A stretch of DNA of 64,000 bases from positions 124,001-188,000 of the forward strand of contig NZ_FNJL01000006.1 of NCBI RefSeq assembly GCF_900104515.1, given 5' to 3'. The notes under the pieces are model-generated. The model did no database searches. It was not told the origin of the DNA and worked only from the letters and a program-made list of their open reading frames with translations. This document shows, in pieces, positions 7,709 through 37,479 of this stretch. The DNA comes from Paracidovorax cattleyae. Lineage in GTDB: Bacteria; Pseudomonadota; Gammaproteobacteria; Burkholderiales; Burkholderiaceae_C. Every line of letters starts with the position of its first letter. Position 1 is the first letter of the stretch. The position numbers and the translations under genes were made by a program.

Positions 7709-8614
7709 TCAGGTGCCGTGCCCGGAACGGCCGTGCGCGATGCGCCGGCGGGGTACCGTGGCCGGCGCCTCGACCATTCGCCCGCTGCGTTCGGCCGCGT
7801 CCTGCGCCAGTTCGCCGATCAGCGCAGCCTCCGGCAGATTCTTCCAGTAGCGCACCGGCATCTCGCGCCGCATCATGTCCAGCTTGAGGCGCGCGGGATT
7901 GAAAGTGTGCCGGTAATAGGTCAGCCAGAGTGCTTCGCCGGCATCGGCCGGGGGCGCATCCGCGCGCGTGGCGGCCGGTCCGGTCTGCAGCGTGGTGCCG
8001 TCCCAGTGCAGACTGCACTCGGGCGTGAGCAGCGCCCACCGCATCTGCGTGAAGCGTTGCACGAAGAAGGCGGCATTGGCCCGCACGATGAAATGGTCCG
8101 GCTCGAACCAGGCCACGTGCAGCGGGGCGGCGCCGCCATCGTCCACCGGGCGGAAGCGCACGAAGGCGCGCATCTTGTGCATGTCCCGCCGCACGGCGGC
8201 GGCCATGCGCTGCACGCGCGCGATGTCCGCATCCAGCGGGTCATGGCGCAGCGCTGGCTCGTGCGCCATGCGCCAGAGCGCGCGATAGAGCAGGGCGAAG
8301 CGGGCCGGGTCCTGGTGCAGGCACGCGCTCTCGCACAGCGCAACGAAGGCCCGCGGTATGTGCACCGGCGTGCCAACCGCACCCCCTGCACCGTCCGGCC
8401 CGGGGCATGGCGCGGCGCCATGCGTGCCGCCGGCTGCGGGCGGGCCATCCGCCGCACTGAAAAGATCGCCTTCCGCTGCGCCGGCGACCTGCCAGGCCAC
8501 CTGGTCCGGCGCCATCCCGGCTTGCAGGCAGGCGCGCGCGCCTGCCCGGAAACCCTGCCAGTCGGCAGGATGCTGCATGCAGATCACGGAATGCACTGCG
8601 CTGCCGGAGCTCAT
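7709..8614 (-). CDS. TIGR03915 family DNA metabolism protein (DUF4130)
   Basis: This 301-residue protein is the known companion of the radical SAM gene next to it. Its ATG overlaps that gene's stop by 4 bases (ATGA), indicating translational coupling. The C-terminal half carries DUF4130 marks: HKMRAFVRFRP, HVAWFEPDHFIVRANAAFFVQRF, WLTYYRHTFNPARLKLDMMRREMPVRYWKNLPE (positions about 150-275). The middle has a low-complexity insert (about residues 55-80). In other bacteria this domain is found beside, or fused to, UdgX-type uracil-DNA-binding proteins; no UdgX gene is in this window. The molecular function is unknown; a DNA repair role is inferred from context and the SOS box. Confidence 0.85.
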   Translation of the reverse strand: MSSGSAVHSVICMQHPADWQGFRAGARACLQAGMAPDQVAWQVAGAAEGDLFSAADGPPAAGGTHGAAPCPGPDGAGGAVGTPVHIPRAFVALCESACLHQDPARFALLYRALWRMAHEPALRHDPLDADIARVQRMAAAVRRDMHKMRAFVRFRPVDDGGAAPLHVAWFEPDHFIVRANAAFFVQRFTQMRWALLTPECSLHWDGTTLQTGPAATRADAPPADAGEALWLTYYRHTFNPARLKLDMMRREMPVRYWKNLPEAALIGELAQDAAERSGRMVEAPATVPRRRIAHGRSGHGT

Positions 8615-9915
8615 GCGAACAGGCGCGCCTGCGTGGGTTGCGGCGCCAGCCATGAACGCAGGCGCGCCGGGTCGCGCAGCCGGTCGGCAGGGCGGTGATC
8701 GGCCACGCAGACGAAGGGCAGCACGCGGGACAGCGGCACGTGCAGCCGTCCCAGATCGGCATGGCCCAGCCGGCGCACGCGGCGGGCAGCCAGCAGGCGC
8801 TCCACCGTGCGCACGCCCAGGCCGGGCACGCGCAGCAGCCGTTCGCGCGCGGCGGTGTTGAGGTCCACGGGGAAGTGCTCCGGGTGCGCCACGGCCCAGG
8901 CGAGCTTGGGGTCCATGTCCAGCGACAGCATGCCGCCCGTGCCGTCGCCTTGCGGCACCGGCGGAACGATCTCGTCGTGCGTGAACCCGTAGAAGCGCAT
9001 GAGCCAGTCGGCCTGGTAGAGCCGGTGTTCGCGCACCAGCGGCGGAGCGGACAGGGGCAGGGCGCGCGAGGCATCGGGAATGGGGCTGAAGGCGGAGTAG
9101 TACACGCGGCGCAGGCCGAAACCTCCGTAGAGCCGTGCGCTCGTGGCCAGGATGGTGCGGTCGTCCGCGCCGTCCGCGCCCACGATCATCTGCGTGCTTT
9201 GCCCGCCCGGCGCGAAGCGAGGCGCCTCGGCCCGCCGGGCGCGTCCGGGCAGGGAGACGATGCGCTCCGTGCCGGCGCGCGGCCCCTGCTGCTGCGCCCG
9301 TGCCTGCCGTGCTTCGTCGATGTGCACCGCCAGGCGGCCCATGGAGCGCTGGATGGCGGCACCGTCCTTCTCGGGCGCCAGCGTGGCCAGGCCCTCGGAC
9401 GTGGGCAGTTCGATGTTGATGCTCAGCCGGTCGGCGTAGCGGCCTGCGCGCTCCAGCAGTTCGGGGGCGGCGTCCGGAATGGTCTTGAGGTGGATGTATC
9501 CACGGAAATCGTGGTCTTCGCGCAGCGCCCGGGCCACTTCCACCACGCGCTCCATGGTGTAGTCGGGGTTCTGGATGATGCCGCTGGAGAGGAACAGCCC
9601 CTCGATGCAGTTGCGGCGATAGAAGTCCAGCGTGAGATCCACCACCTCCTGCACCGAGAAGCGGGCGCGGGCCACGTTGCTGCTCACGCGGTTCACGCAA
9701 TAGAGGCAGTCGTACTGGCAGTAATTGGTGAGCAGGATCTTGAGCAGCGAAATGCACCGCCCGTCGGGCGCGTAGCTGTGGCAGATGCCCATGCCCTCGG
9801 TCGACCCGATGCCCTTGCCGCCCACGGAGTTGCGCGCCGACGTGCCGCTGGAGGCGCACGATGCGTCGTATTTGGCGGCGTCCGCGAGGATGGCGAGCTT
9901 GGACAGGGTGGACAC
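8611..9915 (-). CDS. putative DNA modification/repair radical SAM protein (TIGR03916)
   Basis: This 434-residue radical SAM enzyme has its [4Fe-4S] cluster triad as CQYDCLYC (Cys66, 70, 73), with other cysteines at about 20, 45 and 54. KYDASCASSG at the N terminus is typical of TIGR03916. Towards the C terminus, LLRVPGLGVRTVERLLAARR is a helix-hairpin-helix DNA-binding element, which supports action on DNA. The reaction is not known. The start is GTG at 9915 because homology begins there, but there is no Shine-Dalgarno: the LexA box fills that place, so the message may be leaderless or nearly so. It is followed by the DUF4130 partner with a 4-base overlap. Confidence 0.88.
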   Translation of the reverse strand: MSTLSKLAILADAAKYDASCASSGTSARNSVGGKGIGSTEGMGICHSYAPDGRCISLLKILLTNYCQYDCLYCVNRVSSNVARARFSVQEVVDLTLDFYRRNCIEGLFLSSGIIQNPDYTMERVVEVARALREDHDFRGYIHLKTIPDAAPELLERAGRYADRLSINIELPTSEGLATLAPEKDGAAIQRSMGRLAVHIDEARQARAQQQGPRAGTERIVSLPGRARRAEAPRFAPGGQSTQMIVGADGADDRTILATSARLYGGFGLRRVYYSAFSPIPDASRALPLSAPPLVREHRLYQADWLMRFYGFTHDEIVPPVPQGDGTGGMLSLDMDPKLAWAVAHPEHFPVDLNTAARERLLRVPGLGVRTVERLLAARRVRRLGHADLGRLHVPLSRVLPFVCVADHRPADRLRDPARLRSWLAPQPTQARLFA

Positions 9916-9932
9916 TGTATTAATTTACAGTA
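9913..9932 (-). promoter_or_regulatory. LexA (SOS) box overlapping the start of the radical SAM gene
   Basis: CTGT at 9915-9918, eight AT-only bases, then ACAG at 9927-9930 match the proteobacterial LexA operator CTGT-N8-ACAG exactly. The 20-base context differs from the E. coli ideal TACTGTATATATATACAGTA only at the first base and inside the AT core. The outer base of one half-site is the first base of the GTG start codon. Binding of LexA here would block transcription start or early elongation. Site identity is seen in sequence; regulation is inferred. Confidence 0.8.
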
Positions 9933-10004
9933 TCTGCTGCAGAAATGCCCAAAGCCCATTTCGGGTGCGCGCCTTTTACCGCGGCGGCATACAGGGCCGG
10001 TGCG

Positions 10005-10544
10005 TCAGAAGGAGCTGCCGGGCTGCTGCAGGAACAGCGCTTCTTCCGCCGTGGTCTCGCGGCCCAGCACCGTGTTGCGGTGCGGAAACCGGCCGAAGCG
10101 ATCCACGATCGCCTGGTGCTGCAGCGCGAAGTCCAGGTTGTTCGGCTGCCCCAGCACGGTGAAGAGCCGCACGGATTCCGCCTGGATGCGCGCCGACTCG
10201 CTGTGCATGAACGGCATGTACAGGAATGCGCGCCGGGGCGGCGGCAGGTCGGCGTCCAGGCCCCGTGCAACGGCCTCCTGGGCGAGCGCCAGGGCCATGC
10301 CGTCCTGCGCGAACGACTCTGCCCTCCCGCGCAGCAGGTTGCGCGAGAACTGGTCGAGCACGATCACCTCGGACAGGCGCCCTGAGGCATCCGCGCGCCA
10401 TTCCCATAGCTCGCCCAGCGCCGCGCGGGCATGCAGGGCGCCGAAGCGCGCCCGGATGGCCGCATCGAAGGCGTCATCCTTGCGGAACCAGAGATCGGGA
10501 GTGGTTTCCTCAAACCAGAAATGCAGTACGTCCTGGGCAGTCAT
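10005..10544 (-). CDS. DUF924 family protein
   Basis: This 179-residue all-alpha cytoplasmic protein of the DUF924 family has TPR-like helical structure and no known reaction. Family marks are VLHFWFEE near the N terminus, VIVLDQFSRNLLRG in the middle, FLYMPFMHSE, and the closing DRFGRFPHRNTVLGRETTAEE. The length is usual for the family. It lies upstream of the radical SAM gene on the same strand, with an 89-base gap that contains the LexA box, so it is probably transcribed apart from it. Confident family call; function unknown. Confidence 0.9.
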   Translation of the reverse strand: MTAQDVLHFWFEETTPDLWFRKDDAFDAAIRARFGALHARAALGELWEWRADASGRLSEVIVLDQFSRNLLRGRAESFAQDGMALALAQEAVARGLDADLPPPRRAFLYMPFMHSESARIQAESVRLFTVLGQPNNLDFALQHQAIVDRFGRFPHRNTVLGRETTAEEALFLQQPGSSF

Positions 10545-36669: not shown

Positions 36670-37479
36670 TCAGTGCCCGGCGGCCGGGGACGCCGGTGCC
36701 GCCGCCCGCACGTGCGCGAGCGCCCGGCACAGGTCGGCCCAGGCGGCGGCCTTGGCTTCGGGCGCGCGCAGAAGATAGGCCGGGTCGTAGGTGACGACGG
36801 CAGGCGTGCCGTCCGGCAACTGGTGCGCGGTGGCGCGCAGCCTGCCGAGCGGTTCGCGGCTGCCCAGCACGGCGCGGGCGGCTGGCAGGCCCAGCACCAG
36901 CACCATCGCCGGGCGCAGCGTGGCGATGGCGGCCTGCAGCGCCGCCGCGGCATCTTCCGGACCGTCCACCGCCCCGGGGGCGGCCCGCTCCACGGCGGAG
37001 AAATGCGCGCGCGGATGGCGGTGCAGGCGCATCGCGCGCAGCATGTTGTCCAGCAGCTTGCCCGTGTCTCCTGACAGCGGGCCTTCCGGTGATGGACTTT
37101 CGCCGATCACGAGCCAGCCACTTCCGAGCTCGGCGGGCGTGGCGGCCGGGTCGGCCTGCGGATAGAGGGGCTGCGGTGCATGGAGCCGCAGTACCGGCCC
37201 GGTGGCCTCCGGCATGCGCGCCCCGCCTGCGGGGGCTGCCGCGGTGGGCTGCACGGGGGCGGCGGGTCGTGGCGCGGCCGGCGCGGTCGTCTGCGGTACG
37301 CCTGCGGCTCCGGGCGGCGGCGGAGCGTGGACGGCGGCGGCGCGGACGGGTGCGGCCGGCTGCGCCGCCGGTGCCGGGGCTGCCTGCACTGCGGCCGGGG
37401 CCACGGGGGCGGGCGCCCATACGGTGATGCCCATTTCGGTCAGCATGGCACGCTGGCGGGCGTCGAGGTCGAGGCTCAT
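36670..37479 (-). CDS. uracil-DNA-glycosylase-fold protein lacking iron-sulfur cysteines
   Basis: This 269-residue protein ends in a family-4-like uracil-DNA glycosylase fold: WLVIGESPSPEGPLSGDTGKLLDNML (about 122-147), LRPAMVLVLGLPAARAVLG (about 189-206) and VVTYDPAYLLRAPEAKAAAWADL (about 228-250). Only one Cys (251) is present, so the usual four-cysteine [4Fe-4S] site is gone, and the expected HP of the second motif is DP (Asp232). The first 115 residues are a proline/alanine-rich linker. It overlaps rimI by 4 bases (ATGA), a conserved neighbour in the order. Enzymatic activity is doubtful; it may be a structural relic or have a new role. Confidence 0.78.
   Translation of the reverse strand: MSLDLDARQRAMLTEMGITVWAPAPVAPAAVQAAPAPAAQPAAPVRAAAVHAPPPPGAAGVPQTTAPAAPRPAAPVQPTAAAPAGGARMPEATGPVLRLHAPQPLYPQADPAATPAELGSGWLVIGESPSPEGPLSGDTGKLLDNMLRAMRLHRHPRAHFSAVERAAPGAVDGPEDAAAALQAAIATLRPAMVLVLGLPAARAVLGSREPLGRLRATAHQLPDGTPAVVTYDPAYLLRAPEAKAAAWADLCRALAHVRAAAPASPAAGH

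Follow-up and report, generated by a model that had tools for sequence, protein, structure and literature searches.

A coupled gene pair in Paracidovorax cattleyae, encoding a TIGR03916 radical S-adenosylmethionine (SAM) protein and a TIGR03915/DUF4130 protein, is almost certainly under LexA/SOS control, as judged from a perfect LexA operator that reaches into its start codon. The pair lies in a 64,000-nt stretch of contig NZ_FNJL01000006.1, all of which was analyzed and which we call the window. Relatives sampled across the phylum nearly always have the LexA operator type of their own lineage before the same gene, and the box is absent from three genomes without an intact LexA; the SOS control proposed in an earlier sequence-only reading of this DNA is thereby strongly supported. 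The damage-response role proposed with it is upheld as to setting, since the operators place the pair there, but they do not imply that its proteins repair DNA. Features are collected in Table 1; L, G, C, and f numbers are our handles for loci, genomes, contigs, and families.

A LexA operator before a radical SAM/DUF4130 gene pair

Both proteins were assigned by profile matches. The radical SAM protein scored 540.2 bits against TIGR03916 (curated cut-off 343.5), its sole match in an NCBIfam scan at E-values up to 0.001; the spore photoproduct lyase (SPL) and PA0069 family models gave no match in that scan. The downstream protein scored 220.8 bits against TIGR03915 (query 7709-8617, minus strand; curated cut-off 112.25) and 123.5 bits against Pfam DUF4130 (cut-off 27). 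The DUF4130 queries and structural model were started at 8617, one Arg codon before the ATG at 8614, which left the matches unaffected. On the minus strand, the radical SAM stop codon and the DUF4130 start codon overlap as ATGA at 8614-8611. Gene order, family assignments, and coupling are all as the sequence-only reading had given them.

The motif CTGTN8ACAG occurs only once in the window, at this operator. As a bare motif it is not significant: 0.43 copies are expected per window by chance, and at least one appeared in 35 of 100 shuffles. With its all-A/T core it is significant, having appeared in none of 100 window shuffles. Base 9915 ends the operator and at the same time opens the GTG codon, so that the A/T-core operator described earlier stands while its placement needs correcting: the two elements share one base rather than abutting. 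The operator also contains an in-frame TAA, which makes a start of the reading frame further upstream impossible.

Table 1. Features of the radical SAM/DUF4130 locus in the window (HhH, helix-hairpin-helix).
Feature	Position	Strand	Basis
LexA operator CTGTAAATTAATACAG, perfect CTGTN8ACAG	9915..9930	(-)	sequence; conserved in relatives
Candidate -10 element TAAATT, inside the operator	9922..9927	(-)	sequence; 6 nt upstream of GTG; spacing matches relatives
TIGR03916 radical SAM protein, 434 aa	8611..9915	(-)	profile match and cysteine motif
TIGR03915/DUF4130 protein, 301 aa, stand-alone (no UdgX domain)	7709..8614	(-)	profile match; ATGA coupling
HhH-like segment	near residues 350-380 of radical SAM protein		profile against PDB
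QARLF, clamp-motif-like	C-terminus of radical SAM protein		sequence

The whole genome contains 27 CTGTN8ACAG sites against 14 for a reversed control pattern, and therefore many of the 27, about half, may be chance occurrences. Further sites precede lexA (contig C41; L056), recA (L015), and imuA (L045), as well as a dinG (L005) that was identified from a fragment and under its cut-off. The window box is thus of the same type as the one before the genome's own lexA. Elsewhere in this genome, a perfect LexA-type box stands 7 nt ahead of the start of a second radical SAM gene (L003, contig C24), a PA0069 family member at 417.9 bits, and two LexA-like boxes with A/T-rich cores (L010, L043) precede genes that could not be named.

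Operator conservation and repressor status

The sequence-only reading had suggested looking for LexA sites before TIGR03916 genes in other Burkholderiales, and such sites were found. TIGR03916 was matched in 21 of 300 genomes of the window's order, 18 of them over the cut-off, and in 11 of the 17 full-length loci the box is perfect and lies 24 to 65 nt before the matched start. The 18th gene, from G073, was left out of this set; in that fragmented 480-contig assembly the TIGR03916 gene is broken across two frames (L033, L037), with no box upstream. Three loci of family f26 (L019, L020, L022) have a variant operator at the equivalent place (TGTACGAACGTACA, TGAACGAACGTACA, or TGAACGATCGTACA; representative TGWACGWWCGTACA), close to the form TGTACRTTCGTACA that represents the f26 lexA promoters (TGTACATTCGTACA or TGTACGTTCGTACA). 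The LexA of this family is itself divergent, scoring 97.7 to 99.9 bits and under the curated cut-off (L062-L064), and the operator seems to have changed along with its repressor.

The remaining three order loci, L017 and L018 (f45) and L021 (f10), have no box. We looked for LexA in 18 genomes and then in 16 more. No match was obtained in G262; G292 yielded nothing beyond a 21.6-bit piece, and in G375 the match was confined to the peptidase half (model positions 83-202, 62.8 bits). None of these three genomes without an intact LexA carries the box; they represent two lineages, as G262 and G292 share one genus. By these comparisons, loci that depart from the perfect box mostly agree with LexA status.

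Beyond the order, we examined a set of named relatives, the best 80 of at least 590 confirmed candidates and hence biased by similarity. The alphaproteobacterial box (GAACN7GAAC or GTTCN7GTTC, sought within 200 nt) was present in 57 of 61 alphaproteobacterial loci and in the two loci whose class is uncertain; it occurred in 20 of 2238 control windows, and none of the 17 beta-, gamma-, xanthomonad, or verrucomicrobial loci has it. Among the betaproteobacteria, CTGTN8ACAG was found in 6 of 11 loci (1 of 447 control windows), and four more (L118, L122, L129, L131) have a one-mismatch box ending in CCAG. The relaxed pattern CTGN10CAG matched all 11, but also 34 of 447 control windows. The box of the Spongiibacter locus L164 differs from the pattern by one mismatch. 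Upstream of the verrucomicrobial locus L189 lies, by eye, TGTTC-AATA-GAACA, which we take to be the form of its phylum.

The phylum was also sampled by an even draw. Of 398 genomes, 99 had any TIGR03916 match; 84 were over the cut-off, all of these were full-length, and all 84 were examined. The alphaproteobacterial box was present in all 54 genomes outside the window's class (presumed alphaproteobacteria). In the window's order, 10 of 11 loci had CTGTN8ACAG, and the eleventh had the f26 variant that resembles the operator of its own divergent lexA. Among the other orders of the window's class, family f60 had the perfect box in 3 of 3 loci and family f55 in 7 of 12, with CTGN10CAG in the other 5. 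No LexA box was found in the 3 loci of f57 (presumed xanthomonads) or in that of f52 (G375, the genome with only half a LexA). These forms can be set beside the LexA boxes tabulated in PMC9578287, where Caulobacter is given GTTCN7GTTC, and Escherichia coli and Pseudomonas aeruginosa CTGN2TN7CAG. Caulobacter vibrioides also matched TIGR03916 in a control search. The operator is thus conserved in relatives, as expected of a LexA regulon member.

A few loci weigh against so regular a pattern. Four of the 61 alphaproteobacteria (L132, L141, L155, L188) are without an exact box, the Salinisphaera locus L192 had no box by the patterns used, and Acidovorax temperans (L120) has a degraded site, which the relaxed pattern probably matches by chance, given how often CTGN10CAG occurs in control windows. 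Within the order, G058 has LexA but no box and is an unexplained exception.

The position of the operator relative to the start codon was compared in 94 rows, comprising the 80 named relatives and 14 of the 17 order loci (the boxless L017, L018, and L021 not included). A box was found in 82 rows, with CTGN10CAG used outside the alphaproteobacteria. Operator and nearest in-frame start are no more than 5 nt apart in 50 of the 82; 24 rows show a gap of 2 nt, and in 11, all betaproteobacterial, the start codon shares the operator's last base, although taking the start nearest to the box biases these counts toward small gaps. Eight of the 50 close-gap rows have a Shine-Dalgarno-like tetramer upstream. 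A TANNNT ending exactly 6 nt before the start was present in 11 of 13 close-gap rows outside the alphaproteobacteria and in 9 of 37 within them, and mean distance to TATAAT was lowest at 6-nt spacing in both close-gap groups and not in the 32 wider-gap rows. These data suggest leaderless mRNA, which we put forward as a hypothesis. Set against this, no canonical sigma-70 -35/-10 pair was found at 9850-10060 of the window.

Xanthomonads appear to have exchanged the LexA box for another element. The three named xanthomonad loci have no LexA box, a result repeated in f57 in the even draw, and all three have GTCTCA-N5-TGAGAC just upstream. This palindrome occurs 2, 1, and 3 times in the three genomes (reversed control 0), before the TIGR03916 gene (3 sites), a DEAH-type helicase gene (2; best model TIGR03817, under cut-off on a fragment), and uvrA (1). 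Among 25 genomes drawn from f57, 14 had 28 sites in all and 11 had none (reversed control 0). Seventeen of the 28 sites were placed, before the helicase gene (9), the TIGR03916 gene (6, including L249), uvrA (1), and recA (1); of the rest, one lies 150 nt before dnaB and ten are without an assigned gene (palindrome loci L198-L203, L205, L249, L317-L343). With one mismatch allowed, three genomes yielded 25 sites (control 0). Among nine further one-mismatch loci, L205 precedes the helicase gene and L207 an rmuC-like gene (by eye; no NCBIfam match), and the other seven had no clear repair gene. In three f57 genomes the lexA promoter instead has TTAGTAGTAATACTACTAA, so the regulator of the palindrome is probably not LexA. 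Judged by its target genes, GTCTCA-N5-TGAGAC looks like the mark of a LexA-independent DNA-damage regulon, of which our literature searches found no description. That the TIGR03916 gene stays with repair genes under a changed regulator supports its role independently of LexA.

The UdgX-less form and the features of its proteins

By a motif check, an in-frame stretch of uracil-DNA glycosylase (UDG) type follows DUF4130 in 73 of 95 assessable rows, and DUF4130 stands alone in the other 22; in the named loci only, the UDG-type stretch follows in 65 of 78. Here L150 and L182 were left out as incomplete, and L026 was scored as fused from the longer locus L113. The two states require a minimum of 12 changes, counted without direction, on a quick maximum-likelihood tree built from 97 radical SAM rows, in which 31 of the 94 inner branches reach a support of 95 and 27 fall below 80. 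The window's nearest rows, L032 and three Acidovorax loci, are all UdgX-less, whereas in G171, from the same family as the window genome, UdgX is present as a fusion (232.7 bits). The 22 UdgX-less rows include 10 with an exact operator, 3 with the f26 variant, and 3 whose box has one mismatch; the others are L155 and L188 (no exact box), L120 (degraded), L127 (xanthomonad palindrome), and L017 and L018 (no box and no intact LexA).

We also looked for a UdgX hidden elsewhere in the genome. Four UDG-fold matches were found, none over the UdgX cut-off when the matched stretches were scanned. Two are UNG and a deoxyinosine glycosylase, the third is a weak family-4-like domain that lies in the window, and the fourth had no NCBIfam match at E-values up to 0.001. 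The window domain, at 36730-37119 on the minus strand, is degenerate and scored 50.5 bits with the UdgX model and 48.5 with family 4, both under cut-off; the gene upstream of it resembles rimI by eye. The strong UDG of f26 genomes was likewise rejected as UdgX, scoring 184 to 192 bits with family 4 and 121 to 124 with UdgX (cut-off 189.95). The absence of UdgX noted from the sequence, and the two-component version it pointed to, are confirmed by these results. Since a UdgX-less form exists, the comparison suggests that the core system is the radical SAM protein with DUF4130.

The radical SAM triad noted earlier (CxxxCxxC) corresponds to C66, C70, and C73 and is invariant in 45 of 45 rows, as are C20, C45, H46, and C54. 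Most of residues 20-54 were modeled with a predicted local distance difference test score (pLDDT) below 50, which might reflect a metal site missing from the model; such a site is a hypothesis drawn from the invariant residues.

At the C-terminus of the radical SAM protein, many relatives have a motif like that of sliding-clamp ligands, for which a beta-binding consensus Q-L-x-L-F, often C-terminal, is given in PMC4549789. The pattern Q[LMIAF]x[LM][FL] occurs within the last 20 residues in 62 of 80 named relatives compared with 3 of 430 mechanical open reading frames (ORFs) from the same loci, and a stricter clamp-type form in 53 of 80 compared with 1 of 430; in the order set, 11 of 17 have the clamp-type motif. 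Docking to the sliding clamp via this tail is therefore our hypothesis for the family.

Several protein features count against the mechanism that we propose below. The window's QARLF fits 4 of 5 consensus positions, and 18 of 80 relatives fail the relaxed clamp test. The C-terminal helix-hairpin-helix of the sequence-only reading is only weakly supported, as the best PDB match of the profile is a ComEA-related protein at an E-value of 0.0079. In Foldseek searches, the radical SAM model matched generic radical SAM folds and no DNA repair enzyme in particular: the first ten matches were MiaB, MgmA, HydE, and HydG (best E-value 4.9e-7; template modeling (TM) scores 0.34 to 0.39 by query length). 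The DUF4130 model had no convincing solved neighbor (best E-value 0.069). Kinship with SPL found no support from structure, as the lyase was absent from the best 50 of 1188 Foldseek matches.

Proposed function and relation to known systems

In the mechanism we propose, LexA bound on the operator would cover the -10-like region, touch the start codon, and so repress the pair, and LexA cleavage triggered by RecA on single-stranded DNA would induce a bicistronic mRNA with a short leader or none. The radical SAM enzyme would bind DNA via its HhH-like region and be held at replication or repair sites by its C-terminal beta-clamp peptide, where it would direct SAM-derived radical chemistry at a damaged base; DUF4130 would be its constant partner. 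UdgX, which most of the relatives examined carry as a fusion with DUF4130, would be a dispensable accessory. Of these elements, the sequences show the families, the operator with its conservation and taxon-specific form, the coupling, the clamp-like motif in relatives, and the lack of UdgX; LexA binding, induction, clamp binding, leaderless mRNA, DNA as the substrate, and repair as the outcome are inferred. Cells with damaged DNA very probably benefit from the pair, and we lean toward a LexA-repressed DNA-damage operon whose products repair DNA through radical chemistry. The fullest version of this proposal is tentative and, taken whole, rather doubtful: a clamp-docked radical SAM machine for lesion repair, governed by each lineage's own damage repressor (LexA types or the xanthomonad GTCTCA-N5-TGAGAC regulator), with a leaderless mRNA in many lineages and UdgX optional.

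The same setting could serve SOS-induced tolerance or mutagenesis rather than repair, with modification of bases (for example thymines) altering the action of error-prone polymerases such as ImuB/DnaE2. In this genome imuA likewise has a perfect LexA box, which fits such a role, but the neighboring genes scanned (DUF924, an S30AE/HPF-like protein, and a C26 peptidase) include no mutagenesis genes, and we consider this explanation unlikely. It is improbable that the enzyme instead modifies protein or RNA during the damage response, as relatives of MiaB, RimO, or HydE would: the structural neighbors listed above are of that kind, but at their TM scores they reflect the common radical SAM core, and both the clamp-like tail and the HhH-like segment speak for DNA.

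A role in uracil base excision, with the pair only assisting a uracil-DNA glycosylase, would account for the UDG-type stretch in most named loci and for the description of the operon as UDG-based base excision repair in PMC8565304. We nevertheless hold it to be distinctly improbable, given that the UDG part is missing from nearly a quarter of rows through at least 12 changes, that no UdgX scored over the cut-off in this genome, and that the radical SAM and DUF4130 genes, and mostly the operator, persist without it. Lastly, the box could be a chance match and the genes lie outside LexA control, as the frequency of the bare motif in shuffles and in the genome would allow. The A/T core was never reproduced by shuffling, however, and conservation takes a lineage-specific form; with the control windows and the even draw, this led us to reject a chance box as very improbable.

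Repair under LexA control remains our preferred reading. A widespread gene pair is tied firmly to the DNA-damage response. As the core exists without UdgX, its function can be tested without confusion from a uracil-binding protein. The clamp-like tail suggests the enzyme's place of work, and the xanthomonad palindrome points to a separate damage regulon.

Some of this was foreshadowed in print. We presume COG4277 to be the family of the window's radical SAM/HhH protein. A putative SOS-regulated operon, COG1573-COG4277, is described in Bacteroidetes in PMC8565304, according to which SOS regulation of a UDG-based repair system had earlier been reported in Verrucomicrobia and Alphaproteobacteria. 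DUF4130 appears in PMC3765255 as a predicted mutagenesis-related enzyme. Searches by title and beginning of abstract returned nothing on the TIGR03916/DUF4130 family beyond PMC8565304, and none of the papers searched treats UdgX and radical SAM together; by name, only these two among them were found, for COG4277 and DUF4130 respectively, and none for TIGR03916, TIGR03915, or 'rSAM link UDG'. Because SOS control of a UDG-bearing relative is in print (PMC8565304), the control itself is less new than the sequence-only reading held. What is new here is its reach into betaproteobacteria and the recurrent UdgX-less form, the family's SOS control being known in outline; the clamp-type tail, the closeness of start codon and operator, and the xanthomonad palindrome are further additions.

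Among known systems, SplB and PA0069-type proteins (COG1533) have the radical SAM domain in common with the window protein, which differs in matching TIGR03916 only. Proteins docked to the clamp by a C-terminal QLxLF have tails similar to that of this family, from which the window copy departs as QARLF, a candidate clamp peptide. The TIGR03916 and TIGR03915-UdgX fusions share both core genes and their order with the window, and the UdgX domain that most rows have fused is absent from the window, L032, and the three nearest Acidovorax rows. A further counterpart in the literature is the COG1573-COG4277 operon, for which damage control was likewise predicted by comparative genomics; the passages of PMC8565304 consulted here mention neither a clamp motif nor an operator touching the start codon. 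That operon has a UDG, whereas the window pair stands without UDG or UdgX, behind an operator of the betaproteobacterial type.

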